Positions 9,853 to 63,190 of a DNA stretch of 64,000 nucleotides are shown here, piece by piece. The notes under the pieces were generated by a model that was not told where the DNA came from, made no database searches, and was given only the letters and a program-made list of their open reading frames with translations. The first letter of the stretch is position 1, and each line of letters starts with the position of its first letter. The stretch spans positions 62,001 through 126,000 of the forward strand of contig JAQMWT010000122.1 in the NCBI GenBank assembly GCA_029834535.1, read 5' to 3'. Origin of the DNA: Chrysophaeum taylorii (lineage: Eukaryota > Sar > Pelagophyceae > Pelagomonadales > Pelagomonadaceae). The position numbers were made by a program, and so were the translations under genes.

Positions 9853-10017
9853 CAAGTTGCTCACGTTGCCCACGTTGCCCTTGCCTTCTTTGACTCTTGA
9901 GATTGGTGCTTGAACCTCAACGGTTCAATAGGTAGTAGAGACTACCTAAGGGAAGGGTAGACTTATTATTATTAGTGTACGTACTAATTAGCCCTAGGCG
10001 CTAAGCACATTCACATT
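9853..10017. promoter_or_regulatory. Probable bidirectional promoter
   Basis: Only 165 bp separate the start codons of the divergent PhyH-SET and CFAP70-like genes, so their core promoters must lie here or overlap the genes. AT-rich stretch TTATTATTATTAG at about 9963-9975. No specific factor site is claimed. Confidence 0.35.
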
Positions 10018-13000
10018 ATGGCAGCCGTGTTGCTCGAGGTCGGCGAGTGTGATGTGTGTTTCAAGCCCGGCGCTTTTTCTTCCTCCTCCGGAATCCTCTG
10101 GATAAAACTCTCACGCATCAACAACAACAACAACAACAACACGGATGACGAGTGCTCGCCGTGGAGCGAGGCTTTTGGAGGCGCCCAAGCGGATGACACC
10201 GACAATGAAAAGAATAGGGTCTCGAGAAACTTAGAGCGGGAAGATCGCTTCGACTGGGACGTGGCACGATTTGGTGCGGAATTGGAGACCTTGAACGATG
10301 CGAGCGTGACCTCGTTGCTGCGGACGTCTGCCAAGATCGAGCTCTGGCTCGCCAAGGGTGCCGAGCCGAGCGACGCGAACGACATACGACTCGGCGCGGC
10401 GTGTCTGCCTCTAGTTGGTATCTTGCGCTGTTCGCGAACGTTGAGCGTGGCCTCGACACTGCAGCTGTGCGAAGAACTCGACGAAGAGCTCCTCGCGAAG
10501 GCCGCGACGATTCACCTGCGGTTGAGGGCCGACAACGCTCTCGCCGACTTCCTTCTTGGCGGCGCCCTTTTGCGTGTTACGACCTCGCAGATTCGTCAAG
10601 CTCCGAAAGAATGGTGGGCCGCCCCCGAAGACAGAGTGGAACCCGAAAATTCGCGGCTCGACTTCCACGTGGAGTTGGCGATAGCGCGCAGGAAAGATGC
10701 CGCGGACGATGACGGACTCCTCTTGCCTCCGGGCGACAGTGTGGGGTGCATCTGTTTGAGCGACGGAAGTTACTGTAATGAGAGCGTGTCGTGGCGCGCG
10801 AACGATGCAACTGCATTTGTTTTCATCTCGGCCCGGACACTCGCGGCGCTTGCGCGATGTCCGTGCGACTGGGTGCTCGTAGCGTCGATGAAGACGAGCG
10901 ACACGCGGATGCTGTTCGGGGCTGCGTTGGACATCTCTGCACTTTTTGAGCAAGAGCAGCGCGATGGACGGTTGGCTGCCGACCTCGCTGCACCAATCGG
11001 TGTCACAGCCCACGGCCACACCGCCAGTGCCTCGTTGACGCACTCCGGAGACGGCGTGGACCGAGAACGCACGCTGCGCGAGGCGCTCGAGGCCGCGGGC
11101 ACCGTTGTGCACGTGACTGTGGCGATTGAATCGCATGCCCCGGTAGGCCGCGAGCCCGTCGCTGGAACTTGGGACGGCATGATACCTCACCAAAAATTGC
11201 TAAAGGGCCTGACGATGGCTGACATCGTACCTGCGAGGCGAAAGCTCCGCGTCAAGGTCCCGCGCGATGTCGTCGGAGAGCTGCGCACGGAGATTGCTGA
11301 GATTGTCGAGACATTAGGAAAAGCCTACGACACATCCTCTAAAGCTGGTGAGTTTGATGGCATGGACAGCGAACAGCGCCAACGCTGGCTCCGGAGGCGC
11401 CTCTCAGATGAGCCGACGATGCACAACTTTCGCATCAACTTGACATCTCGAGTCCACCGTGTCATTCGCGCCCGCTACAGGGCGCAACCCACCACCCAAG
11501 ATGAGGAACTCAAGCTGCTCGGAGATTGCTTCACCTTCCTCCTCGACATGACGAACGATTTCTTACCAAAACAACACCAAGAACAATGGGCGACGACTGA
11601 GAAGGACGATCCCGCCGTCGCCAAAATCCGAGCCAAGCAAGAGTCGCTTTTGACGCTCGCTCTCGACGCTGAGGCCAACGGGAACTGGTCTCTGGCTGGG
11701 CGGGAGCACAAGCAGCGGCTCTCTTTGATCATCACGCAGAAGGAAGACGTGAAGCAAGATGCGGTGCTGGCGAGCATCGCAGCGACGACGTGGCTAGACT
11801 TCGCGGAATTCGCGCTGCGGGCGTTTGGCGACAAGGCCGGCCGTCTAGCGATTGGCCGCTGTCTCGAGCTTGCGCTTCAAGCCATCTACGAGGCATTCGC
11901 GCTAGAGCCAGAGGCGGGGCGCGTCGTCGAGCGAAATACTTCAGTGACAACAGTGCCTTTTACCTCAGACGAGCGAAGGCTTTGCGCCGCCGAGGCAAAA
12001 AAACTCCACGCGGCAGTGCTGCTCGAGCATGGGCGTATCGATGACGCACTATCGGCGCTCAGCGCCGTGCTCTATCGCCAGCTCCCGAGTGATGTCGCTG
12101 AACGACTTGATGGCGAAGACGACCTGCTCGCGCGCTTGCGTCTTGAACCATCGGGCATCTACTTGTCCGAGGCGTCACCCCTCACATCCGCTTTTTACTG
12201 CGTTCTATTCGACGCCCGCGGCGAAGGCAAGGCCGCTCACGCCGCAATTGTTTCTGCTGCGACCAAGTTCGTGTCAGAGGCGCCGGTTGTCCAGATGTAC
12301 GCCGCGTTGGCCGTCATGCTCACGATAACCGAGTATTTTCTCGACTATTCGTTGAAGAGCGCCGCGACCCGTGCCTTGGAGATCGCAAAACGGGCCGAAG
12401 ACACCGCCCGCGCGCGATGCGTGCTCCACTCGCGCCCCGAGGCGCCGCCGGATCTTAAGAGTCTCAACCTCCGCATCCACGCGAGCCTGCAGCTCTTGGC
12501 GGGTGACGTCAACAAGGCGACCACCCTCGCCGCAGCGGCCTGCGATGAGCACGAATCAGTCCGCGCACTGACAATCTACGGCGACGCGTTGCACGCCCAA
12601 GGTCGTCTCGCCGACGCTGCCGAACCCTACGCCAAGGCAATCGCCCTCCATGCTGACCGGGCACCGCTCAAGCTACGAGTCCGCCATGCGCAATGTTTGC
12701 TACAAACTGGGCAAAACGAGGACGCAAAAATGGCGTGCCTCCAAGGGGCCGAGGAGTGGCAGACCAGCTCACTGTGGCTCGGTGCGGGAATCGCACAGCT
12801 ACGTCTTGGCGAACACTCTGCGGCCGACAAGTCACTGCGACTCGCCACCATAAGGAGCGCGCGAGCACCGCTCCCCCATAGCTATCTGGCCCTGCTCCAC
12901 CTCGTCTCCGAGGGGGCACAGCAGAGCGAAGCCTACTCGTCTCTGGTCCTCGATCTCGCGATGCGTCTTGGTCTCGAAGATGCCTCGCTCCTGCGCGAAC

Positions 13001-13269
13001 TAGGCAACACGTACTACCAACTTGAACGGTATGCGATGGCGGAGTCTCTTTTCCGTCGTGCCGCAGCTAATGAGACAGGCAAGAGCGCACGAGCGCACGC
13101 GCGAAAGCGACTTGCTGACGTCTTACAGGCGCAGAACGAAACCGAGGCCGCAATCGCCGAATATCAGCAGGCTCTAGACGCGTCAACGAATGCCGAAGAA
13201 CGCGACGAAATCGCAGGCAGTCTCAAGAAACTCCTGGTGGCGCTCGGTCGAAGTTCGGCGGAGATCTGA
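10018..13269 (+). CDS. CFAP70: CFAP70-like TPR protein of the axoneme
   Basis: 1083 residues in one exon. The N-terminal 390 residues resemble the C2/beta-rich region of cilia- and flagella-associated protein 70. A linker follows with the conserved-looking segment from MADIVPARRKLRVKVP through RVHRVIRARYR and FTFLLDMTNDFL, then LALDAEANGNWSLAGREHKQRL and WLDFAEFALRAF, the same order as in vertebrate CFAP70 (TTC18). The C-terminal half is a chain of TPR-like helices, for example LTIYGDALHAQGRLADAAEP, RELGNTYYQLERYAMAESLF and AIAEYQQALDAS. CFAP70 belongs to the central apparatus of motile cilia; its length is close to the usual 1,100. A poly-Asn run near residue 36 comes from (AAC)n. Another large TPR protein cannot be excluded. 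Confidence 0.6.
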   Translation: MAAVLLEVGECDVCFKPGAFSSSSGILWIKLSRINNNNNNNTDDECSPWSEAFGGAQADDTDNEKNRVSRNLEREDRFDWDVARFGAELETLNDASVTSLLRTSAKIELWLAKGAEPSDANDIRLGAACLPLVGILRCSRTLSVASTLQLCEELDEELLAKAATIHLRLRADNALADFLLGGALLRVTTSQIRQAPKEWWAAPEDRVEPENSRLDFHVELAIARRKDAADDDGLLLPPGDSVGCICLSDGSYCNESVSWRANDATAFVFISARTLAALARCPCDWVLVASMKTSDTRMLFGAALDISALFEQEQRDGRLAADLAAPIGVTAHGHTASASLTHSGDGVDRERTLREALEAAGTVVHVTVAIESHAPVGREPVAGTWDGMIPHQKLLKGLTMADIVPARRKLRVKVPRDVVGELRTEIAEIVETLGKAYDTSSKAGEFDGMDSEQRQRWLRRRLSDEPTMHNFRINLTSRVHRVIRARYRAQPTTQDEELKLLGDCFTFLLDMTNDFLPKQHQEQWATTEKDDPAVAKIRAKQESLLTLALDAEANGNWSLAGREHKQRLSLIITQKEDVKQDAVLASIAATTWLDFAEFALRAFGDKAGRLAIGRCLELALQAIYEAFALEPEAGRVVERNTSVTTVPFTSDERRLCAAEAKKLHAAVLLEHGRIDDALSALSAVLYRQLPSDVAERLDGEDDLLARLRLEPSGIYLSEASPLTSAFYCVLFDARGEGKAAHAAIVSAATKFVSEAPVVQMYAALAVMLTITEYFLDYSLKSAATRALEIAKRAEDTARARCVLHSRPEAPPDLKSLNLRIHASLQLLAGDVNKATTLAAAACDEHESVRALTIYGDALHAQGRLADAAEPYAKAIALHADRAPLKLRVRHAQCLLQTGQNEDAKMACLQGAEEWQTSSLWLGAGIAQLRLGEHSAADKSLRLATIRSARAPLPHSYLALLHLVSEGAQQSEAYSSLVLDLAMRLGLEDASLLRELGNTYYQLERYAMAESLFRRAAANETGKSARAHARKRLADVLQAQNETEAAIAEYQQALDASTNAEERDEIAGSLKKLLVALGRSSAEI

Positions 13270-14761: not shown

Positions 14762-14906
14762 ACAGTTTCATCAAACCTGTTCGCCTCCCGGGCGGGCCGG
14801 TTGGCAGCCGGAACGTTCGCAGTGGGACGGGGTATGGCTGGAGGGCGCAGACGGAACGGTATCGACGAGTTGGTTGTCAGTCTCATCGCGGTCCCCGCGT
14901 CGCATG
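14762..14906 (+). repeat. Dispersed repeat family A, copy 2 (left part, split by LTR element)
   Basis: Runs from about GACAGTTTCATC into GGTTGGCAGCCGGAACGTTC and ends at CGTCGCATG, where the retrotransposon is inserted. The same family A copy resumes at 25379. Comparison with copy 41404 shows the split falls inside CGTCGCA(T/C)GG.GACAAG. Confidence 0.85.
14902..14906. repeat. Target site duplication (left), GCATG
   Basis: Five bases GCATG directly before the left LTR, repeated directly after the right LTR. A 5-bp duplication is usual for Ty3/Gypsy integrases. Confidence 0.9.
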
Positions 14907-15242
14907 TGTGGCGTAAGGAGAATTTTAGGGGCTACCTGGCGTGCCTTCGAATCCTGGCTCGCCGATCGCGTCCGTGCCCTTGGTGGGATCACTGGACGAG
15001 GATGGCCGTTCTCCCGCCACGCGACCACAAACAACTCCTGCGCCTGGTCCTCTCAACTTGAGGATCGGCTGTTGCTTTATGATCAAAGATAATCGAAATC
15101 AGAAATCAGGGTGACACATGTCACGGAAAAGGAAGATGATGTCATAGAAAACTCTGACATCATCGGAACGGAGTAGGGTGCCCCTGAAAAGGGGGGGCCC
15201 TAGAAGAGGGGTAAGCCTTTGGAGGCGGGAGTTGCCGCCACA
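14907..15242 (-). repeat. 3' LTR of the retrotransposon
   Basis: 336 bp, TGTGGCGTAAGG at its left and GTTGCCGCCACA at its right on the plus strand. Identical by eye to 25043-25378. Contains an inverted TGACA..TGTCA pair near its middle and GGGGGGGCCC near one end. Confidence 0.95.
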
Positions 15243-18900: not shown

Positions 18901-19166
18901 ATCGAACTTTTCTCGTATTTTAGTTTCACTTCCGGGTGGCTTTTGTTGATCCTCTCGCCTTTGACACGAACACTCGGCTCGCTCTTAATCTTCGGTTCCC
19001 GATCTCGCTCAGGATCTGGCGGAACGTCTAAATTTGGTTGGTTGTCGGGGGGGCCCAGCAGAAGAAGCATGAGACGTCCCCGGCTCATCTGTTGCAGGCG
19101 GAATCAACGGTACCTCTGGAGGTTTCCATTTGGTGTGATCTTGAAGATCATCAGTCGACACCCATC
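18901..19166 (-). other. Linker between methyltransferase and Pol with frame changes
   Basis: Coding-like sequence in changing frames. After the stop at 19169-19167 the next open frame reads KHAHVIRWVSTDDLQDHTKW and on through a Pro/Ser-rich stretch. At a run of seven C (minus strand, near 19,050) the sense continues in a second frame (NQPNLDVPPDPERDREPK). At an AAAA run near 18,945 it passes to the Pol frame. A chain of small indels, or real recoding, would explain this. Confidence 0.55.
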
Positions 19167-20364
19167 TTATGACGTGCGCGTGTTTAACAGCGGAACTTGT
19201 ACGTGACGAAGGGTGGTTTCATCAATTTGTAAATAATAATCAAACGGTCGGTCTGCAGGACTCAACGCTGACGGCAAAGCTTCGCCGCTCAGGTGAAATT
19301 CCTTGGTCACAGAGTTGTGCAGATCGAGCATTAATAAGGCCATCGTGTCAGGTGGCACGACGGACGCTAAATGTTTCAACGAGGTCGTCCTGGAGAAGCC
19401 GGCCCACTCAAAATCAGGGGGCATCGTCAGCAACTCCGACGTCATTTCCAGATTCAGAGATCTGTAATCGGAACGGTGCGGTCCTACGCGAAGCGGGACA
19501 CGCGTAACAGTATAAGCTGCGTCTGTCGCGGCTCGTGATGATCCTAAATTGTTCATCTGAAGTAAATGTCGTTCGTCGGCGTAGCCAAGTGCGGCGGCGA
19601 ACTTTTGCTGCATATTCTTGCAAGTCTTGGGAACTGCGCGCAAATGGAGCGGATGGCTGGAAACCAACAATCGCACGCGACAGCTCATCAAACTGGGAGT
19701 TATGTCGTAAAAATTGACGACGTATACGTACGGGTGCAAACGTGCAACGTAAGAAATAATCGAAGCCTCCTGCTCTATCAACCACATGAAGAAACCAGCC
19801 ATCTTGCATAATTTCATCGTCCAGTGGGTAGCGGTGACTCCCTTCCCAACATCTCTGGAAGTCAAGTTGCACAGAGCGGAGTGTACGCAGGGTGGCGACG
19901 CGACACACATCGACGACGACCATTCCGCGTAGGGTAAATAAGATTCGATCAACCGTAAGGTTGTAACATAGCGACCACACAGTGTGTGCACCACAGGAAT
20001 ATTCGGAAAGTTCTTGTGGTGGATCTGGTTGGCGGTGTCCGACGCATCGAGTGCTAGCACGACTCGAAACGACGTCCCACGTTTCGTTGGCTCGTTGGAG
20101 ACCTAAAGTACTGCCTCCGGCTCCACTGAACAGCATCACCACCTTGCGATAAGTGATTGGAAGCCATTGAACCTTTTCATATCGGCGGCGGATCTCCGCT
20201 TCGGTGATCTCGCGGCATTTCTTTTCATCTTTTTCTGACCTTCGAGCGAAATCGTCGCTGCCTTCAGGTCGTTTGAGGGTGGACTTGTCCGTCATAGCGG
20301 TCGTAGCGTCCTTCTGCACCGTGCTCAGCAGCATCGGCGGGGGAGATTCGTCGCATCGCGTCAA
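19167..20364 (-). CDS. C5-cytosine DNA methyltransferase domain of the retrotransposon (two frames)
   Basis: Transfers a methyl group from SAM to cytosine C5 in DNA. Motif I, LFSGAGGSTLGL (20133 to about 20098), lies in one minus frame (20364-19414). About 11 codons later, at a TTT near 20,070, the homologous sequence continues in the +1 frame (20060-19167): VLALDASDTANQIHHKNFPN (motif II/III), VASPPCVHSALCN with catalytic Cys codon at 19889-19887 (motif IV), WLIEQEASI (motif VI region, ENV-like), NFYDITPSLMSCRVRLLVSS (motif VIII-like) and LLTMPPDFEW with VVPPDTMALLML (motifs IX/X). About 310 residues, a normal catalytic-domain size. The N-terminal part overlaps the end of the protease frame by about 50 nt. 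The motif order is canonical, so the family call is firm; activity of this copy is doubtful because of the frame break. The upstream frame start is a TTG, so it is probably translated as part of a polyprotein. Confidence 0.8.
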
Positions 20365-22358
20365 ATGACTAGCGACAGAAACGGTGAAAGAAGGTTCCCC
20401 TTGTCGTATCCTTCTTCACATTCTTTCGTAAGTTCGTTGATCGTAGAGACGTTCAACTCATCTTCGTACCTAACGATATCACCAATCGCAAGGGCTTCGC
20501 CTTGAGTGACGATCGTCGGCACTTCTTCCGTGGCAGTAACTGCCACCCGAGCAGCGGACCGGTCGCGCTCTTCGCAAGAAGAACACATTCCTTCGACAAC
20601 TCCCAACTGCTCGTTCTCAGCAAACGTAGCGACGAAAACCTGTCCTTTTTCCATAGGCTTCGACAAAATAACCGGTAGATTGTACGTTCGACCGGGCTCG
20701 ATTTGAATCGTGCGCGCGGCATAAGCGATTACTTCGCGCGCGTCTTCTCCCGGAGCTGGGGAGAATTTGGTCGTAGCATGTCCCCGCGTAGCCATGGCTA
20801 CCGTACGTTCCGGCGGCGGGCTTCGGAGATCTTTAATCGTGCTCAAACGAGCATAAACTCGAGTCTTGACCAGGTCGAGACTCTGCCGAAAGGCATCGTG
20901 TTGATGATTGTAAATCGGTACGGTTATCGGATTCCGATCGTAAATAGACCGAAAGGTCACGATTGGTGCATCGACTCGTTCATCCTTAACTTTAATCTTC
21001 TTGCGCCCGTAGACGACTTGGGTTCGACAAAAACAGATCCGATCATGGGGAAAATCCACGATGGCTCCTAAAACTCGTATATCGCGCCCTCCCAACAGGA
21101 ACAGATAATTCGTATCGGCTACAATAGCAACAATGGGAGCGGCAAAGTCATCGGCGAAAGCGACCCGAAGGGCGATCCAACGATGGATCGTCGTCGTATT
21201 CAATCCTGATCCGTACAGCTTGCGCTTAATCGGAAGTTCGCCTTCATCGAAAATCAACTGATCTTTGGTCAACTTTTTGACCATTTCTCGGCAAATATAA
21301 GAAACATCTGCCATTCCATCGACACCAATGGTCGTCGAGAATTTCGGTCCGTCACGATTCCTGTAGATGTGACAGGCTATAAACGTTAAAGTACCCGTAT
21401 CTAAACAACTGAGGGTAATCAAATCATCTTCGATCGTCTTGCCATCTCGCGGCGTCAACGAAGTGTGAGCACATCGGGCTCTGAATCGCTCATCTCCGGG
21501 GTTGGGCATCGATACCGCGGCTTGAGCTTTCGTATTATCTGTTGTTGGCGTCTTCGCCATAACGCTCGCGGCAGCCTCTTTATCTGGCGGCTTCCGCTCT
21601 TCCTCCAAGACAATCTCAGAGGGAATCAGTGCTGGTAGGGGATCCTGGTCTTCGTAGTTCACGGAAGCAAAGGACCCCTCCCATAAATCATTCATTTCGT
21701 CTTTCCAGAATGCATCTGTAAATTCATTCGTCGCCTGCTGATCCTCATCAGCATCGGCGATCGGTTCCGTGTCAGCTGCGGCTTTGAGTCTGCAGCTGCG
21801 CGGTTGTTCTGGTGGCTTCTTTAGCAAGAAATTCCGAGCTTTCGTCCACCAATCCTGCAGGTTCCACGTCGGCTCGTCTTCGTCCCGCTTGAGAACGCTG
21901 CTTATCTTCTTCATAAATCTATCCTTTTCTTCCGGCGGCGTATCCGTGTCTCGATCCGTAGTAATCGAAACCGTTTCGGGATCCGCAGGAAAAGATGGCG
22001 TCGTCCCCGACGTCAACTCTGTCGTAAAATCGTCGTCTGCAATACTCGCGCTGGTCATCGTCTCGTCAGTCGAATGCGCGCACGAGCTATCACTGCAGAA
22101 ATTCATGTCTGGCTCACAGCCAGTTCGGTCGCCAGCGGTCGTCTCTGGAGGGTCCAAAGATAAGCCGATGGCATCGAGGGCTTCCTCATCAAAAATAAAC
22201 GGTGGGTCGTCCAGGGACGACTCGTCAAATAACGTTAACGCACACTGGTTCACAAGTGTAGGCTTCTTCATCTTCCGAATCTGAATCGCCTTTCCAGTAT
22301 CGTGTAGCTTCAAGTTCCTCGCTCGAATCTTCGAGCTCATCGCTCGACATCTGCTCAT
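20361..22358 (-). CDS. Retropepsin-like protease ORF
   Basis: About 665 codons, open upstream into the end of gag. The first 280 residues are acidic and low complexity. A retroviral-type aspartic protease follows: TFIACHIY (first strand), then TTIGVDGMADVSYIC in place of the usual IDSGAxxxFI, and LFLLGGRDIRVLGAIVDF, equivalent to the ILGxDxL flap-side motif. The catalytic Asp is there, but the Ser/Thr-Gly after it is replaced by Gly-Met, which is odd. A second strand-rich region (RTYNLPVILSKPM..GQVFVATFAEN) follows. Ends TGA at 20363-20361. Frame relative to gag is +1; relative to the methyltransferase start it is -1. Confidence 0.7.
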   Translation of the reverse strand: MSRCRAMSSKIRARNLKLHDTGKAIQIRKMKKPTLVNQCALTLFDESSLDDPPFIFDEEALDAIGLSLDPPETTAGDRTGCEPDMNFCSDSSCAHSTDETMTSASIADDDFTTELTSGTTPSFPADPETVSITTDRDTDTPPEEKDRFMKKISSVLKRDEDEPTWNLQDWWTKARNFLLKKPPEQPRSCRLKAAADTEPIADADEDQQATNEFTDAFWKDEMNDLWEGSFASVNYEDQDPLPALIPSEIVLEEERKPPDKEAAASVMAKTPTTDNTKAQAAVSMPNPGDERFRARCAHTSLTPRDGKTIEDDLITLSCLDTGTLTFIACHIYRNRDGPKFSTTIGVDGMADVSYICREMVKKLTKDQLIFDEGELPIKRKLYGSGLNTTTIHRWIALRVAFADDFAAPIVAIVADTNYLFLLGGRDIRVLGAIVDFPHDRICFCRTQVVYGRKKIKVKDERVDAPIVTFRSIYDRNPITVPIYNHQHDAFRQSLDLVKTRVYARLSTIKDLRSPPPERTVAMATRGHATTKFSPAPGEDAREVIAYAARTIQIEPGRTYNLPVILSKPMEKGQVFVATFAENEQLGVVEGMCSSCEERDRSAARVAVTATEEVPTIVTQGEALAIGDIVRYEDELNVSTINELTKECEEGYDKGNLLSPFLSLVI

Positions 22359-24639
22359 AAATCTGTGCCAAAGACCGACGATTGGTCAGCACGTCGTTGG
22401 GTGGCTCGTCCATCGGTGGGCGAGCAAGATCTTCGAATGCGGCCGCGGCAAGGGCGTCGGCTGCGTCGTCGGTGCGGGTGTCCGTGTTCGGGTACACCGT
22501 CACTCCTAATGGTAACTGTTGACCGCAAGGGGTCGTAAATGTGAACGTTGCAGACGACTGTCCCGAGTCTTCTCGGTAACGACCATCGTCCGAATCTCGA
22601 TCGCGAGATCTTCGTCGCCGGCGGCGGCGTGAATGTCGGCTGGAGCTCCTGCTATCTTTCCGTCGGCGCTGGCACGAGCTACTACGGCTCTTGTCGTGGC
22701 GTCGGGGGCTCCTGCTATCTCGACGGCCTGTTCGTGTCGAAGACGATCGGCCGCGTCTATCTGTTAAGTGCTGCACGGTACTCATAACCGTGGTTAGCTG
22801 CGTGCTCATATCATTGAGTCTGCTCTGAATATCGTGAGCAGCGCTCGAACCGAAGGTGGCATTAGAACTACCGTCGTCACGCGAATGATTATCTTTCCTT
22901 TGTCGGCTCTCCCATCGTCCTCGCGAAATGGGCTTTCTGCCGTCTTTGATGTATTGGCACATCGCTACATAGTAGTCGTCGGGCTCGCGGTTGCAAATGA
23001 CGCGGTTCCCGTGTTCGTCTTTGTCGTGGGTCGCTAAGAAAAACCCACAGTCCTCGCACGTCCTCTCGAACCACTTTTTTGGATTCTCTTCGAGGCGTAA
23101 GGCTTCATATTTCGTCGTTTTCTCTTTCGTTCCCGAGACGAGAGCTCGTCCTCCGCGTCCAGGCGGCGGCTTCTGCGGTTTCCCGCTCGAGGGGTTCATC
23201 GAGTTTCGGCTGGTCTTCTCCGCCATTGCTGTTGCGAAGTCGTTTTCGAGCCGCGTAATCAGCGACAACGTAGACGTAAACGTCTTATACGTCATCGGGT
23301 GTCCGCTGCGCATCGTTCGCACGCGGGATTTCAATTCGCTGGACTCCAGTCCACGTATCAAGTAAGAGATGATCTCCACGTCGTTGAGATCTCGGTTGGC
23401 CACGGAACAGTATGCCATGGCTTCTTGCTGAAATTTAATGCAATATGTATGCACGTGACGTTCTCCCGAGCGTTTCGGAACGGTCGCTTGGGTCGTGCAT
23501 TGTAACTTTCGTAATGATTCCTCTGCCGTCACCGGCAGCGGACAACTCTCTCGGAAATATTTCAAAATCTTGAGGCAATACTTCTCGTTCAATCGTCGTA
23601 TCCGTCGTACCACGGAACCGTACTCCTCATCGTCGATATCCCGACATAAATAGAAAGACGCTGGGTGATCGAGGTCTTTACACAGGTCTTCATATTTCTT
23701 TAAGTGTTCTCGAAAAATCGGTGCGACCGTGTCGCGTAGGGTCGCGGGAAGCAGATATCGGAATTTCTCCAAGCTGAAATGGTCTTCGGCTAATGTACGC
23801 ATCACCGCACCCGCATCTAAATCGAACTGGTCCTGATCGCGTCCATCGAGAACCAGTTTAAAAGTTTCGGTTTTTAATCCAGAGGTTGATCGCCGCTCCT
23901 TGTTGCGATCGTGTTTAGCTAACGCGCTCGCGAGTCGATCCGTAAAACCCATCAAGAACTCCTGGGTGTCGATCTTTCCGGTTCCGCGCGTCTCCTCCTT
24001 TTCTTCGTCATCATCGTCTTCATAGCGCGGCTTTCTAGCTTTCGCGCGTGATCGTGTAGTCGGCGGCTCTTCCTCAGCTCGGGACTCCGGGCTGCTCGCT
24101 CGCCTTGATCGACTCGGCGTACGTAACTCGTCTCTTTCACGGGTCAACGAGCTTATTCGTTCCTGGAAGGCGTCCGTTCGAGCGTTGGCCCGGCGCAGTT
24201 GCTCTTTTAATTCTTCGTTCTCCTTCCGTTGTAGCCGTTCTTTTCGTTCGTTCTCTTCCCCTATTTGTTTTAAAAGTCGTTCTTGCGCGCGTTCGTTCTC
24301 TTCGCGTAATGCCCGCAAGTGAGCCTCGTAGAACTCATTCATTGTCGTTGCATCCGGGGGTTCTGCACGCGTTGACGGAGCTGTCGATCGTCCTCCCGCC
24401 GGTCTCTCCGTGGGCTTGCCGTCGTTGTAGTTTAGCTCTTCTTCCTCGTCAACTTCTGTATCGTGCTCTTCTTCATCGTCATCATTATCATCATCATCAT
24501 TCCGCTCGTTCGTCTCATCCTGACGGCTTGGCGGTTCTTCATATCGTAGCTGCTCGACGGCAGCATCATCGTCTTCCATATCGGCTCTGGCTCGTTCTAA
24601 TCGGCCGAGATCAGAGCGGGTCCAAAATGATTGAGTCAT
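22225..24639 (-). CDS. Gag-like structural protein
   Basis: 804 residues, ATG at 24639. Acidic N-terminus (Asp/Glu runs), a coiled coil at about 110-175, basic linker, a retrotrans_gag-like helical core at about 270-470 (FYLCRDIDDEEYGSVVRRI; CIKFQQEAMAYC; EIISYLIRGLESSELKSRV), then CEDCGFF..HDKDEHGNRVIC, a Cys/His cluster unlike the usual CCHC knuckle. An Arg/Ser-rich block (about 640-700) could bind RNA. This matches the plan of Ty3/Gypsy Gag with an enlarged N-terminus. The stop TGA at 22227-22225 is inside the protease frame. Confidence 0.8.
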   Translation of the reverse strand: MTQSFWTRSDLGRLERARADMEDDDAAVEQLRYEEPPSRQDETNERNDDDDNDDDEEEHDTEVDEEEELNYNDGKPTERPAGGRSTAPSTRAEPPDATTMNEFYEAHLRALREENERAQERLLKQIGEENERKERLQRKENEELKEQLRRANARTDAFQERISSLTRERDELRTPSRSRRASSPESRAEEEPPTTRSRAKARKPRYEDDDDEEKEETRGTGKIDTQEFLMGFTDRLASALAKHDRNKERRSTSGLKTETFKLVLDGRDQDQFDLDAGAVMRTLAEDHFSLEKFRYLLPATLRDTVAPIFREHLKKYEDLCKDLDHPASFYLCRDIDDEEYGSVVRRIRRLNEKYCLKILKYFRESCPLPVTAEESLRKLQCTTQATVPKRSGERHVHTYCIKFQQEAMAYCSVANRDLNDVEIISYLIRGLESSELKSRVRTMRSGHPMTYKTFTSTLSLITRLENDFATAMAEKTSRNSMNPSSGKPQKPPPGRGGRALVSGTKEKTTKYEALRLEENPKKWFERTCEDCGFFLATHDKDEHGNRVICNREPDDYYVAMCQYIKDGRKPISRGRWESRQRKDNHSRDDGSSNATFGSSAAHDIQSRLNDMSTQLTTVMSTVQHLTDRRGRSSSTRTGRRDSRSPRRHDKSRSSSCQRRRKDSRSSSRHSRRRRRRRSRDRDSDDGRYREDSGQSSATFTFTTPCGQQLPLGVTVYPNTDTRTDDAADALAAAAFEDLARPPMDEPPNDVLTNRRSLAQIYEQMSSDELEDSSEELEATRYWKGDSDSEDEEAYTCEPVCVNVI

Positions 24640-25022
24640 CGTCGTTCTCGTGCTCCTTCGGCTCCGGAACTTCTAATCGTCCACGACACGCGTAATATCG
24701 TCGTTGCGTGCGTCTTCCACCGACAAATCTATCCGTACGGTGGGCGGCAGAACTCGTCTCTGCCCGGCAAACAATGCCTTATCCGTGAGTTGCGATCTCA
24801 CTCCGCTCGCCTGCGGCAGCGGTACCCGGTTGCGCGTCGGTTAGCACCAAATCGCGCGTCGTCACTTCCGACGACTAACGTATCCGGCCGGGAACTTTCC
24901 CACGGCAATGGTCCTTCTGGAATTCCTTGTCGGCGCGCTTGATCAGGGCGCGCACGGCTTGTCCGGACCGTGTAGAGAATGCAAGATGCACTAGTTCGTT
25001 GCGACCGATATAGTCGCTCGAA

Positions 25023-25040
25023 TCTCGTATTCCTCCACCA
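25023..25040 (-). other. Candidate primer binding site
   Basis: Two bases inside the 5' LTR the minus strand reads TGGTGGAGGAATACGAGA, starting with TGG (complement of the tRNA CCA end). Bases beyond continue TTCGAGCG, resembling the complement of a tRNA T-loop. Which tRNA is used cannot be told here. Confidence 0.5.
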
Positions 25041-25042
25041 CC

Positions 25043-25378
25043 TGTGGCGTAAGGAGAATTTTAGGGGCTACCTGGCGTGCCTTCGAATCCTGGCTCGCCG
25101 ATCGCGTCCGTGCCCTTGGTGGGATCACTGGACGAGGATGGCCGTTCTCCCGCCACGCGACCACAAACAACTCCTGCGCCTGGTCCTCTCAACTTGAGGA
25201 TCGGCTGTTGCTTTATGATCAAAGATAATCGAAATCAGAAATCAGGGTGACACATGTCACGGAAAAGGAAGATGATGTCATAGAAAACTCTGACATCATC
25301 GGAACGGAGTAGGGTGCCCCTGAAAAGGGGGGGCCCTAGAAGAGGGGTAAGCCTTTGGAGGCGGGAGTTGCCGCCACA
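25043..25378 (-). repeat. 5' LTR of the retrotransposon
   Basis: 336 bp, no difference found by eye from 14907-15242. Should carry the promoter for the minus-strand transcript. Confidence 0.95.
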
Positions 25379-25383
25379 GCATG
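25379..25383. repeat. Target site duplication (right), GCATG
   Basis: Second copy of the 5-bp duplication, directly after the ACA end of the right LTR. Confidence 0.9.
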
Positions 25384-25740: not shown

Positions 25741-25849
25741 GCCGTCGACCTTTAACAACCCTAGCACCCACACAAGCACCCCCCCCCCTCTTAGCATTTG
25801 ACCTTTAAAAACCCTTGCCTACGGCGTATCCTTTTTGATCCCTATCCGG

Positions 25850-26851
25850 ATGGATCGCGATTATGTTGTGTGCTCGGGGTACCTGCACAAGAAAGGCGGA
25901 GGATCCTCAATCCTGGGACGACGTAGTTGGCGACGGCGATTTTTCGAATTGTGGCCGGAAACGGTGGCGCCTGAGCAACAGAATGTGAGCTTGGGTCCCG
26001 CTCTCATGTACTATAAGCGGCACGGCGTCCCGTCGCAGCCTCCCTTGGGCTCAATCCTGCTTGATGGCTACGATAAAGTGTCGTGGTACGAGCGAAAGGA
26101 GCATCCAAACCAATTTTTTTTCGAGCTTGTCCACGAGGTCCGGCGCCCTCGGACGTTTTGGGCGCACACTTCGGAGGAGCGACAGCAATGGACTGAGGCG
26201 ATCACCGCCGCGGTAAAATATCATGGAGAATCTGTCACCGAGGACCAACGCCTCGCCATTCAACACGCTTTGAGCACGGATGACGAGGAGCTGCCCGAGC
26301 CACCGCAGTGCTCATTACACAGTTTCCCGCCCTCTGTCCCAGAGGATAATGAAGAAGAAGAGGAAGAAAAAGGCGACTGGCCTAAGGAACGACCCGCAAT
26401 CTCGCTAGATGTCGCAAAGATCTCCAGGAAGATGCAGAAGCAAAGGAACCGCGTCCACACCCGCGAGTATCGCAATCGGGCTCGTGCGCTCCAAAATGCC
26501 AAATGTTCTCAAGACACATCGGAGATGAGTCCCGTCCACGACCGCGCGCCCTTCGTTAAGGGGCGAAATCTCAATACGCATCACACTCCAAAAAATGCGA
26601 TGTCTCTTGCGGATCAGCCTGCTGTGCGGGCAGACATAACCTCAGACACTCCGGTGAAAGGGAGGCTCAAATCTGTCGATGGAAGCACGACTTTATACCC
26701 CACGACAAGAGATTCCTGGTATTCTTCTGCCGATCCGCACTCGGGACATCCTTTTTACGTCAACGTGCACACTGGCATGTCTAGCTGGACGCTCCCGTCT
26801 GCCGAAACGAAAACGGGAGACACCTCCATATGGCACACGAGGCCCAGTTAA
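25850..26851 (+). CDS. PH and WW domain protein
   Basis: 333 residues from the ATG at 25850 (a TTG five codons upstream is rejected). Residues about 5-130 form a PH domain: VCSGYLHKKGG, WRRRFFEL, YYKRHG, PLGSILLDGYDKV, FFFELVHEVRRPRTFWAHT and the C-terminal helix Trp in EERQQWTEAITAA. A charged linker with an acidic run (EEEEEEKGDW) and a basic segment follows. Near the C-terminus, DSWYSSADPHSGHPFYVNVHT with GMSSWTLP fits a WW domain, with two Trp and the YVN core. PH domains bind phosphoinositides; WW domains bind proline motifs. Role is probably that of a membrane-associated adaptor. Single exon; the promoter region overlaps a family B repeat. Confidence 0.8.
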   Translation: MDRDYVVCSGYLHKKGGGSSILGRRSWRRRFFELWPETVAPEQQNVSLGPALMYYKRHGVPSQPPLGSILLDGYDKVSWYERKEHPNQFFFELVHEVRRPRTFWAHTSEERQQWTEAITAAVKYHGESVTEDQRLAIQHALSTDDEELPEPPQCSLHSFPPSVPEDNEEEEEEKGDWPKERPAISLDVAKISRKMQKQRNRVHTREYRNRARALQNAKCSQDTSEMSPVHDRAPFVKGRNLNTHHTPKNAMSLADQPAVRADITSDTPVKGRLKSVDGSTTLYPTTRDSWYSSADPHSGHPFYVNVHTGMSSWTLPSAETKTGDTSIWHTRPS

Positions 26852-27164
26852 ATCCGTGTTTTAGAACCAATCTCCCCTAGCGGCTGTCGAGGTGAATCTG
26901 AAATAGCGTCACATTCCCATCGTCGTTGGATCTGCGTTCATTAACTGGTCTTAGAAAGTTCATTAGGCCGCCGACTGCCTCATGACCATACTGCTGACTG
27001 GTAATCAGGACAAGTAGGTGGCGCCTCGAGACACCAACGTGTGTGTGTCGTAACATCAGCTTCGATACGGTGGCGCCGATAACTAACTTCGTGTCTATTC
27101 CAGCCTTTTTGCGATCCATCATTCTGGCTCTGGGGCGAAGAGTTGCCTGCCGTGATAATAACTA

Positions 27165-27500
27165 ACTTCAGACCTCTCCCGAGCATGCGAGCCATGCCGG
27201 ACCGGCAGGAGCCGGTACGGAATCACGGAGGAAAAGCACGCAGTTGGGGCAGAGGCGAGGGACGAGGACGGGCTTGTTGATGGTGGACCGCCACTGCGCG
27301 CGGTCTTGTGCGAGGTCGTGCAAAAGCGTCGCAGGCCGCGGACGTGTTGGTCCACGAACAATCGACCTGTCCGTCGCGTTCTGCCCAACCGAGCGAACCC
27401 CATCCCAGCGCGGACTTTCCGGGTGCTAACCGGCCAGCCCGGGAGGCGAGCAGGCACCGTCTCACTCCGGGACGGCCGGGCCGCCGCAGGGAGCCATGAT
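27165..27500 (-). repeat. Dispersed repeat family A, alternative middle, copy 3
   Basis: On the minus strand it starts GCTCCCTGCGGCGGC, passes CTCGCCTCCCGGGCTGGCCG and AGTCCGCGCTGGGATGGGG (shared with family A 5' part), has a middle block (CAGGTCGATTGTTCGTGG, ACCGCGCGCAGTGG) absent from copies 1, 2 and 6, and ends CATGCTCGGGAGAGGTCTG AAGTTAGTT. Copies at 34560, 50010 and 62998 share this middle. Confidence 0.85.
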
Positions 27501-33725: not shown

Positions 33726-34559
33726 GCGGCATTTATTTGTCAACCCATAACGGTTAACCGCACAGGCAGGTGACTACGTACATGTTCACCCAGACACGAC
33801 CACTTGACGTTGAAACGAATCCACAAAATTGATGCGCAGTTCGAAACGTTCGAAAGCGATAGTACGTAGATAGGCTTGCTTGCTCCAGAGCTCTTGGTCT
33901 ATGAGGCAGCGCGTGCTTCCAAAGTCACCCGAACGGCGTGAGCCACCCACAAAGTGACTCGTCGACAAGCTTGCGATTGAAACCGGCAACGTCAAGATAT
34001 TCGAGTACGGGGACAACTGAACCCCATCCAAGTACCACACATCCGTAGTAAAAATGAACAACTGGGACTAAAAAAACAGACCTGACCTCTGAGTAATCAA
34101 CGCCAGAGCGCCGGGTGGCGCCAGTGGCGCAATTATCTTTTATTATGGCAAGCAGTTCCTAGGAGAGGAAGATAGGATCATCTCTAGAGGGGACGAGAGG
34201 AAGAACCGAAGTAGGAGAAGAGGGTTTTCGGAACTTTGTTCGGAGGCATTGCCGTCACGAACACCGCCGCTACCCCCCATCGAGTGCGGGGCATCGATTT
34301 GCTTTGGCAGGTTTAGAGTCAACCGTGAAAACGAAACCATGACTACTGGGCTTCGGCCGCAGTGCTCGTGCGCATCTGTAATGATGCCCGAAAAGAACGC
34401 CAAGTAGATCCCCCCCATTGCGTTCGCAGCCCTCGTACGTAACCAAGAGTAGAATATGGCAAAGGCGACTGCTGACGCTGATTCTCGTTTTGGCGGTAAG
34501 TTACCCCGCACAAAAATTTTCACCCCTCATACTACTTTGGACAGCGCTAGCTAACTAAA

Positions 34560-34966
34560 GAACTAACTTCAGACCTCTCCCGAGCATGGGAGCCAGGCCG
34601 GACCGGCAGGAGCAGGTCCTGTATCACGGAGGAAAATCACACAGTTGGGGTGGAGGCGAGGGACGAGTACTTGTTGATGGCGGACAACCACTGCGCGCGG
34701 TCTTGTGCGAGGTCGTGCCACGAGTTGAAGGGGGTGTCGAAGACGTCCGCCGCCGCAAAGATGCGAACAACTCCTCCTTCTTCTCGTCGCGTCGCAGGCC
34801 GCGGACGTTTTGGTCCACGAACAATCGACCTGTCCATCGCGTTCTGCCCAACCGAGCGAACCCCATCCCAGCGCAGAATTTCCGGGTGCTAACAGGCCAG
34901 TCCGGGAGGGCGAGCAGGCACCGTCTCACCCCGGGACGGTCGGGGCCGCCGCAGGGAGCAAGCGTA
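34560..34966 (-). repeat. Dispersed repeat family A, alternative middle, copy 4
   Basis: Starts (minus 3' end) AACTAACTTCAGACCTCTCC and ends GGGGCCGCCGCAGGGAGC. Longer than the 27165 copy by about 65 bp in the middle (CCACGAGTTGAAGGGGGTGT and following). Confidence 0.85.
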
Positions 34967-41403: not shown

Positions 41404-41645
41404 GTTGGCAGCCGGAACGTTCGCAGTGGGACGGGGTATGGCCGGGGGGCGCAGACGGAAGGTTATCGACGAGTTGGTTGTCAGTCACATCGCGGTCTCC
41501 TCGTCGCACGGCGACAAGCTTGATGATCACTCTCCGCCGACCCACCTTTCGGCGCCCCTCGTCTACAGGCCCGTGATTCCGGACTGGCTCCTGTCGGTCC
41601 GGCCTGGCTCCCATGCTCGGGAGAGGGCTGAAGTTAGTTAGTTAG
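41404..41645 (+). repeat. Dispersed repeat family A, copy 5 (uninterrupted)
   Basis: Begins GGTTGGCAGCCGGAACGTTC and ends GGCTGAAGTTAGTTAGTTAG. This intact copy shows what the copy split by the LTR element looked like before insertion. Confidence 0.85.
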
Positions 41646-41844
41646 TCACTCGAGGCCTACTTTCTGTTCTTTGCTAAATGTATGAGCCAAAAGCATTAAT
41701 GTTTATAAAATGTTTTGTTCTTGCTATCTACGGCGACCCTTGGAGTATCGAAGAGACCGTAGAAGTTTGAGCGAGAATCTGGGTTCGTTGCTGTACGTAC
41801 GTCTCGGCGGGGGTGAGAGCGACGAGCTCAAAGGAGAGTGGGTG

Positions 41845-49464: not shown

Positions 49465-50009
49465 TGCGCAGTGTTATTGAGGAGCAAATGACGGAATGCG
49501 GACGCAGAACGAGGTGTGCGACGGGCACTGCGGCTACCGCGGTAGCACGCGGCGGGTTCTCCTGAAGCGCGGTATTTGCGTCGACTCAATCACTGCCACG
49601 CAGTTGTGCGACAGCATCGTGAGAGATCACTTCGCACAGCCATTCTGTACGTTTCGCGACTGAAGCACCGTCGGCCTCTGCGTCTTCGGCAGGAGCGGGC
49701 CTGGGGAAGGAACTTGGGTGGCCATTCGACGACGACGCCGCGGCAGCCCAGTCAGCAGCGGAGATCACAAGATCGACTCCGCAGTTCGGCGGGGACCCGG
49801 AGGTCGACGGTCCTCGCCGACGCCGTCGATCGATCCCCCGATCGATTCGCGGTAGGCTGGTGATGAGAAAGTTTGTGGAGCGTCGAGGCAACATCCACCG
49901 TCCCGCCCTCCCGCTTCAAACGGCGGCGTGCGATCTCGGAGACGCCTCGCAGTCGCGCAAGCACCCAGGCGATCGTCTTGGGCTGGCCAGTCACGGCAGC
50001 TGGCCGAAA

Positions 50010-50340
50010 CTAACATCAGACCTCTCCCGAGCATGGGAGCCAGGCCGGACCGGCAGGAGCCGGTACGGAATCACAGAGGAAAATCACGCAGAGTTGGGGC
50101 AGAGGCGAGGGACGAGGATGATGGTGGACCGCCACTGCGCGCGGTCTTGTGCGAGGTCATGCAAGAGCGTCGCAGGCCGCAGACGTGCTGCTCCACGAAC
50201 AATCGACCTGTCCGTCGCGTTCTGCCCAACTGAGCGAACCCCATCCCAGCGCGGACTTTCCGGGTGCTAACCGGCCAGCCCGGGAGGCGAGCAGGCACCG
50301 TCTCACTCCGGGACGGCCGGGGCCGCCGCAGGGAGCGAGA
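50010..50340 (-). repeat. Dispersed repeat family A, alternative middle, copy 6
   Basis: Runs from AACATCAGACCTCTCCCGAG to GGGGCCGCCGCAGGGAGC and is very close to the 27165 copy, including the shared middle block. Confidence 0.9.
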
Positions 50341-62997: not shown

Positions 62998-63190
62998 AAC
63001 TAACTAACTTCGGACCTCTCCAGGGCATGGGAGCCAGGCTGGGCTGGCAGGAGCCGGTCCAGGATCACAGAGCAAAATCACACAGTTGGGGTAGAGGCGA
63101 GGGATGAAACGGCGTTGATGGCGGACCGCCACTGCGCGCGCGGTCTTGTGCGAGGTCGTGCCACGAATTGAAGGGGATGCCCAGCTGAGC
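62998..63190 (-). repeat. Dispersed repeat family A, alternative middle, copy 7 (partial)
   Basis: Starts CTAACTAACTAACTTCGGAC (the complement of the TTAG tail) and continues to CACGAATTGAAGGGGATGC. The 5' module is missing. Confidence 0.8.

Follow-up and report, generated by a model that had tools for sequence, protein, structure and literature searches.

Cytosine methylation is usually a weapon of the host against its transposons. The locus described here raised the question of whether a transposon carries such an enzyme itself. The window, which is the whole stretch of 64,000 nucleotides that was analysed, held a Ty3/Gypsy LTR retrotransposon coding on the minus strand. A sequence-only reading had placed cytosine-C5 methyltransferase (MTase) motifs in it, between the protease and the reverse transcriptase (RT). 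We examined the element in the window and its relatives in the genome (70.8 Mb in 697 contigs), where all copy counts are lower bounds.

The element was bounded by two LTRs that were identical over 336 bp, with the ends TGTGGCG...CGCCACA, and GCATG stood at both outer sides (Table 1). The MTase was located well inside these repeats, as had been claimed. The insertion appeared to be recent because both LTRs were identical. The repeats were two direct terminal LTRs and not a DIRS-like arrangement. Pfam found RVT_1 (2.7e-12), RT_RNaseH (1.1e-25), Integrase_H2C2 (1.1e-17) and rve (5.2e-12) in the RT frame, without a tyrosine recombinase match, and the top PDB match of this frame was Ty3 Gag-Pol (E 3.1e-69). 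The order of RT, RNase H and integrase in one frame was that of Ty3/Gypsy. The gag-like frame gave no significant match in a Pfam scan. Retropepsin-like motifs were read by eye in the 674-aa frame as VDGMADVSYI (within 21326-21294) and LLGGRDIRVLGA (21098-21063), and the DGMAD and LLG-R-x-LGAI parts of this protease-like block were kept in family C, a second Ty3 family described below. Pfam found no protease upstream of the RT in the window frame or in the scanned sibling. On the protease side, the claimed position stood by eye.

Several features were observed around the coding region. The RT lay in its own frame (1,233 aa) in the window copy and in some siblings (junction at window 18984-19167), and in others it was read through from upstream; recoding and damage cannot be told apart here. 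A sibling on contig C5 had LTRs that were 98.5% alike and a single 3,063-aa frame, which covered everything from a gag-like block to the end of the integrase, the MTase included. Its gag region (L064:2857-4107) gave no DNA alignment to window 22551-24011, and the flanks were 94-98% alike. Subfamilies may have swapped their gag regions. Open frames for a TPR-repeat protein and a PH-WW protein flanked the insertion (window 9988-13269 and 25802-26851). Dispersed repeats of 110-200 nt, 68-97% alike, were seen at window 27157-27480, 34558-34943, 50005-50321 and 62999-63111, some of them inverted near 41,571-41,646.

Table 1. Features of the retrotransposon and its MTase domain, in window positions
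Feature	Position	Strand	Remark
5' LTR (element orientation)	25043..25378	-	336 bp, TG...CA ends, identical to 14907-15242
3' LTR	14907..15242	-	336 bp
Target-site duplication GCATG	25379..25383	.	direct reading; twin at 14902-14906
Target-site duplication GCATG	14902..14906	.	twin of 25379..25383; 5 bp
Primer-binding-site-like stretch	25018..25040	-	by eye: 2 nt inside 5' LTR, begins TGG, resembles tRNA 3'-end complement
Gag-like open frame, 815 aa	22225..24672	-	by position alone
Open frame, 674 aa, retropepsin-like motifs	20361..22385	-	motifs by eye
RT, RNase H, integrase (H2C2, rve), 1233 aa	15283..18984	-	Pfam and PDB
MTase domain part 1, motif I	20080..20289	-	frame 20415-19414; joined in one frame with the remainder in siblings
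MTase domain part 2, motifs II, IV, VI, VIII, IX, X	19173..20078	-	frame 20102-19167
LFSGAGGSTLGL	20133-20098	-	MTase motif
VVLALDASD	20063-20037	-	MTase motif
KNFPNIP	20015-19995	-	MTase motif
ASPPC	19901-19887	-	MTase motif
WLIEQEAS	19784-19761	-	MTase motif
MSCRVRLL	19688-19665	-	MTase motif
RSLNLEMTSELLTMPPDF	19463-19410	-	MTase motif
HLASVVPPDTM	19373-19341	-	MTase motif

All of the MTase motifs that had been named were present in the window copy, in canonical order on the strand of the element. The frame shifted near 20,080 relative to siblings such as L041, which held the domain in one frame, and the window copy was therefore broken. Profile searches divided the claim of a C5-MTase. Both window frames matched no Pfam family. 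However, PF00145 (curated cut-off 22 bits) was found in an intact sibling from family A, the family of the window element, at 25.0 bits, and in family C (L062) at 40.5 bits (E 3e-10). When the same family A sibling was scanned as a longer piece ending inside the domain, the score was 17.5 bits, under the cut-off. The PHROG DNA-methyltransferase profile gave E 7.8e-7 for family A and 2.8e-12 for the 80% subfamily of family C. With NCBIfam dcm, A and C scored 18.2 and 22.2 bits against a cut-off of 100.65, and family B, a Ty1/copia family described below, was also far under; this cut-off was missed also by the host protein L001 (53.9 bits), which we take to be DNMT2-like from its SPPCQPHTR motif. 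The strongest single-sequence stretches were motifs I-II in A and, in C, a stretch starting from motifs I-II.

Profile-to-profile comparison was performed with hhalign. The A/C profile consisted of nine aligned A/C domains, picked as open frames, and the comparison set of eight other C5-MTases comprised six plasmid-borne bacterial enzymes, a phage enzyme and the host DNMT2-like protein. Eight MTase regions were retrieved, and L076 was omitted from the alignment. The probability was about 98.5% over 255 columns, spanning motifs I-X at 23% identity. Motif I, the PPC of motif IV, the R-x-R of motif VIII and motifs IX-X were all placed. In the controls, 30 column shuffles gave at most 0.9%, compared with 98.4% for the real profile, and the reversed profile gave 0.0%. 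The portion after motif IV alone aligned to motifs IX-X (E 5.8e-5, probability 65.7%). Two deviations from the consensus were found. Motif X was without GN (S for N), and motif VI read E-Q-E for E-N-V. The claimed ENV-like site was thus not ENV in its letters, but hhalign set E-Q-E on it. The nucleophile C136 of motif IV, E174 of motif VI, and R206 and R208 of motif VIII were invariant in 9/9 A/C rows. Outside these rows, the motif read SPLC in L067, with the Cys retained, and SPPY in the broken L073. The longer MTase frame of the window, folded alone, gave pLDDT 31 and pTM 0.18.

The domain was not confined to the window copy. Using the longer MTase frame of the window as the query, at least 127 matches including the window itself were obtained (127 scored of 989 candidates), which were 78-100% identical. 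Forty-one of the 127 listed were in an open frame of at least 1,000 aa, 36 of these without a stop inside the match, and the longest listed sibling frame was 3,067 aa. The sequence-only reading would have been given up for a domain limited to one copy, but the domain was scored in 126 further places. Queries of 91 aa were also used for each domain; 150 segments were scored for the MTase, from 628 candidates, and 150 for the RT, from 733. An MTase was located upstream on the same strand in 107 of the 150 RT segments listed, at a median gap of 442 nt. The 450-nt bin held 102 of them, and the domain was at the same place in sibling copies. Ten further listed RT segments had an MTase in other match lists and 33 had one in none. 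Two of these 33 were read (C24 and C311; L087 and L088), and both carried the MTase, so that no MTase-free sibling was seen among the 150 listed RT segments with two of the 33 candidates read. From the other side, 43 of the 150 listed MTase segments were without an RT segment among the 150 listed, and RT sequence was found in 39 of the 39 A/C loci tested, of which L060 was rearranged.

The C24 and C311 copies had a common frameshift at the same place in the MTase, inside the query segment. Broken versions may have been copied, since two copies share this frameshift, or slippage, recoding or assembly error may tend to occur at this site. Taken together, the segment is established, as far as sequence comparison goes, as a divergent cytosine-C5 methyltransferase domain and a regular part of the Ty3/Gypsy Pol, between a protease-like block and the RT. 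That the C5-MTase fold is a fixed domain of this Pol is nearly certain.

Family C (L062, L069-L072) was a second Ty3 family with the MTase in the same place, and at least 130 matches were found (122 scored of 914 candidates). Its identity to family A was 56-61% in the RT and 37-38% in the MTase. Family C itself had a subfamily at 80% and a relative at 61%, of which the latter (C95:63235) was broken. The MTase was probably present before the A/C split, because both families carry the domain in the same place.

Selection on the domain was estimated from dN/dS. Between subfamilies, the MTase values were 0.058 (A to A79) and 0.063 (C to C80), which are rough because dS between subfamilies was 1.6-2.1, near saturation. 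Within families, the values were 0.18 (A), 0.12 (A79) and 0.16 (C); the requirement for open frames lowers these, and the between-subfamily values are less exposed to it. A single C80-C80 pair gave 0.63 on about six differences (2 synonymous, 4 other). The RT gave 0.019 (A to A79) and 0.11 within A. The MTase was under constraint, weaker than that of the RT (0.058 vs 0.019). These values were obtained from 26 of 30 rows for the MTase of A (L031, L055, L058 and L059 were dropped since their frame did not cover the block), 3 of 4 for A79 (L067 was dropped by the motif pattern), 3 for C and 2 for C80 (the broken L073 was dropped). For the RT, 19 of 39 loci were used, open and ungapped only. Purifying selection on the MTase is strong between subfamilies.

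A domain that had lost catalysis and was kept for nucleic-acid binding or structure, in packaging or integration, was considered at this point. The off-consensus motifs VI and X, the low identity to known enzymes (23% in the profile alignment) and the broken domain common to two copies would agree with it. However, C136, E174, R206 and R208 were invariant across 37% identity, and dN/dS between subfamilies was low. We consider such a loss unlikely. The domain has very probably been selected as an active enzyme.

The origin of the A/C enzyme was searched for in proteins, viral contigs and structures. In a protein database of about 5.8 billion proteins, no match was scored for the A domain alone (5,243 candidates) or for the A polyprotein region (5,315), and the A+C alignment gave no match up to E 10 (7,998 candidates). 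The viral contigs gave no match for A/C, for B or for the host DNMT2-like protein. The protein search relies on shared five-residue words and the viral scan on short conserved peptides, and distant kin may be missed by both. Among phage records, two weak MTase matches to family C were found (E 0.007 and 0.9). The top PDB matches of family A were tRNA (C38) methyltransferase / DNMT2 (E 0.045 and 0.05), limited to motifs I-II and not significant. Family C had no PDB match at E up to 1. The A+C profile had a bacterial cytosine-specific MTase as its top PDB match, also not significant (E 0.16), and Dnmt3 chains were absent among its 4 matches at E up to 10. The A/C capture is likely to be independent of the published retrotransposon MTases, because no homologue was found and no Dnmt3 chain was among the PDB matches.

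A second LTR superfamily gave a comparable result. Family B (L061:4097-9952; G000:C96:59000-68990) had a Ty1/copia-type polyprotein in a 1,952-aa frame, and at least 78 matches were found in the genome (68 scored of 798 candidates). The order was a retropepsin motif read by eye, PF00145, integrase and copia-type RT, which is that of Ty1/copia. Pfam gave PF00145 at E 2.4e-08 (scanned as a piece), a weak integrase at E 0.0061 and RVT_2 at E 1.6e-38, and found no protease in family B. The ENV motif was intact, and hhalign against the eight other C5-MTases gave 95% over 139 columns. Against the A/C profile, the probability was 0.1%, without detectable likeness. In a tree of 15 rows, which contained no Dnmt3 rows, A+C and B were each supported at 100/100 and kept apart. 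The forks placing A+C and B among host and bacterial enzymes were left open, and A/C was not joined with the host DNMT2-like protein. The simplest reading of these comparisons is that the A/C and B MTases are two separate captures; one capture with very fast divergence is not excluded. Two further features of family B were observed. About 300 aa between motifs VIII and IX were unassigned (L061:4868-6817, about residues 230-520 of the 650-aa piece), and they may represent a target-recognition domain or a further enzyme. A 217-nt sequence was found twice in direct tandem, 100% identical, immediately before the copia gag-like frame (L061:1957-2390), perhaps a duplicated LTR or leader.

We also looked for a trace of methylation in the copies of the element. 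Dense heritable CG methylation is expected to raise C-to-T change at CG. Among 27 of 30 copies, C-to-T singletons were counted at 47 of 17,671 site-copies in CG, 25 of 9,423 in CHG and 67 of 25,845 in CHH, corresponding to 266, 265 and 259 per 100,000. L050, L058 and L060 had been dropped from this set (118, 282 and 601 singletons); when they were restored, CG was still not raised (563 vs 541, 681 and 652 in CA, CC and CT). The CpG observed/expected ratio was 1.33 in the element and 1.27 in the remainder of the window. Dense lasting CG methylation was not seen among these copies, because C-to-T change was not raised at CG and CpG was not depleted. This result speaks against heavy, lasting, mutagenic CG methylation. 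It leaves room for transient marking of cDNA, for other contexts or for good repair, since a lack of deamination does not show that methylation is lacking.

Based on the above results, we propose that the Ty3/Gypsy Pol has a regular C5-MTase domain which marks the element's own cDNA, and we give this whole explanation a probability of about 0.6. The MTase would be made and packaged as part of Gag-Pol, and it would then be freed or stay joined to the RT. It would methylate the cDNA of the element, or DNA beside the integration complex, before or during integration, and the methylated context need not be CG. The new copy might then resemble 'self' DNA, or gain a shield from nucleases or deaminases. 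The place of the MTase in Pol beside the RT fits action on cDNA, as is argued for SymbioDIRS-Dnmt3 in the available sections of PMC5890265. Action on the element's own cDNA, taken by itself, is the likeliest role, held tentatively at slightly less than an even chance.

An RNA C5-methyltransferase in the manner of DNMT2, with the genomic RNA or the tRNA primer of the element as its target instead of DNA, would explain why the DNA was without a CG footprint. The closest single-sequence PDB matches of family A, weak as they were, belonged to such enzymes, and an RNA role is raised for SymbioLINE in the sections of PMC5890265 at hand. However, those matches covered motifs I-II only and were not significant, the A+C profile was closest to a bacterial cytosine-specific enzyme, also without significance, and the tree did not join A/C with L001, though its deep forks were open. 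This alternative was judged improbable, to the same degree as a loss of catalysis.

The enzymes of the host itself were examined for a further possibility. PF00145 had 124 places in the genome, and the 30 examined were 28 of family B and 2 of host type. Besides the DNMT2-like protein, a DNMT5-like protein was found (L002 with L082, G000:C621) in one 2,086-aa frame (MTase E 7.9e-18, SNF2 E 9.4e-14). DNMT1 or DNMT3 was not seen among the 30 of 124 places, in an exon-by-exon search that can miss intron-rich genes. DNMT5 has been found in pelagophytes, diatoms and haptophytes among others, according to the portion of PMC9998398 consulted. If the element enzyme had taken over maintenance methylation of the host, this short list of host-type C5-MTases, without DNMT1 and DNMT3, would be understandable. 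However, the DNMT5-like protein is present, DNMT5 in Cryptococcus is described as a maintenance-only enzyme in the accessible text of PMC9246332, and intron-rich host genes may have been missed by the search. Such a takeover is very improbable. The split and Pfam-negative window frames might have suggested that a fragment of a host MTase had landed by chance in a single copy. The siblings refuted this reading, with 126 other places at a fixed distance from the RT and the domain present in both apparently RT-only places that were read, and it has practically no chance of being correct.

The sequence-only reading had also taken the host for an ochrophyte-like alga. Chlorophyll-binding matches numbered 80 in the genome. 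Of two antenna proteins compared against PDB chains, one very closely resembled fucoxanthin chlorophyll a/c-binding proteins (E 2.8e-67), and the other matched LHCI chains of 9vfj first and several FCP-type chains after them. An ochrophyte-like host is plausible because fucoxanthin-type antenna proteins are present, but other fucoxanthin algae fit too and it is not proven.

Captures of this kind have been reported for dinoflagellates and charophytes; De Mendoza et al. describe C5-MTases in LINE and DIRS elements of Symbiodinium and in Gypsy elements of Klebsormidium in the sections seen of PMC5890265. The same sections state that SymbioDIRS-Dnmt3 methylates CG in yeast and propose self-marking of cDNA. 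KnitGypsy-Dnmt3 of Klebsormidium nitens, as presented there, shares several features: it is an LTR Gypsy element, its Pol frame includes a C5-MTase, its copies are intronless and the domain is under purifying selection (Ka/Ks <0.2 there). In contrast, its MTase is Dnmt3-related and its repeats are arranged as in DIRS, whereas the elements here have canonical LTRs, a 5-bp duplication and an MTase without a found homologue or a Dnmt3 PDB match. SymbioDIRS-Dnmt3 and SymbioLINE-Dnmt are alike in that hundreds of retrotransposon C5-MTases occur in one algal genome, in more than one element class. They differ in that DIRS, with a tyrosine recombinase, and LINE are the carriers in the passages seen of PMC5890265, and Ty3/Gypsy and Ty1/copia elements with an rve integrase are the carriers here. 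A 2025 paper mentions, in the part available, DNMT3s embedded in LTR Copia and DIRS structures (PMC12344493); it refers to the 2018 streptophyte/dinoflagellate report, whose available sections name Gypsy, DIRS and LINE. Given this mention, the carriage of an MTase by a copia element may in itself not be entirely novel. The Sola1 transposon of Ectocarpus is alike in that a DNA methyltransferase is carried by a transposon of a brown alga. However, it is a transposase element with ParB-like and N4C/N6A MTase domains, with the gene on the opposite strand and an MTase of another class, by the accessible portion of PMC12477816. In the mostly open-access literature, none of the other papers listed appeared from titles and abstract starts to describe this MTase-bearing Ty3 family.

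The retrotransposon-borne C5-MTase is therefore already known as a kind. What is new here is the host lineage, a very divergent enzyme, elements with canonical LTRs and the copia case. To the known carriers, Ty3 and Ty1/copia elements with canonical LTRs are added from an alga with fucoxanthin-type antennae. More such captures may be unannotated, because this MTase is so divergent that Pfam misses the window copy. In this genome, the transposons themselves carry the enzyme domain, under selection, and at least two acquisitions, of different enzymes, seem to have occurred. More than 100 element-borne MTases were present for each host C5-MTase that was recognised in this analysis. Two LTR superfamilies, each with a captured MTase of unrecognisable source, might even be the working supply of de novo methylation of the genome: the elements would mark their cDNA and its neighbourhood, and the host, whose only recognised maintenance enzyme is DNMT5-like, would then keep the marks. 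We regard this joint reading as doubtful, somewhat more so than an RNA target. The finding also opens the question of whether the MTases of the elements contribute methylation to a genome whose one recognised maintainer is DNMT5-like.
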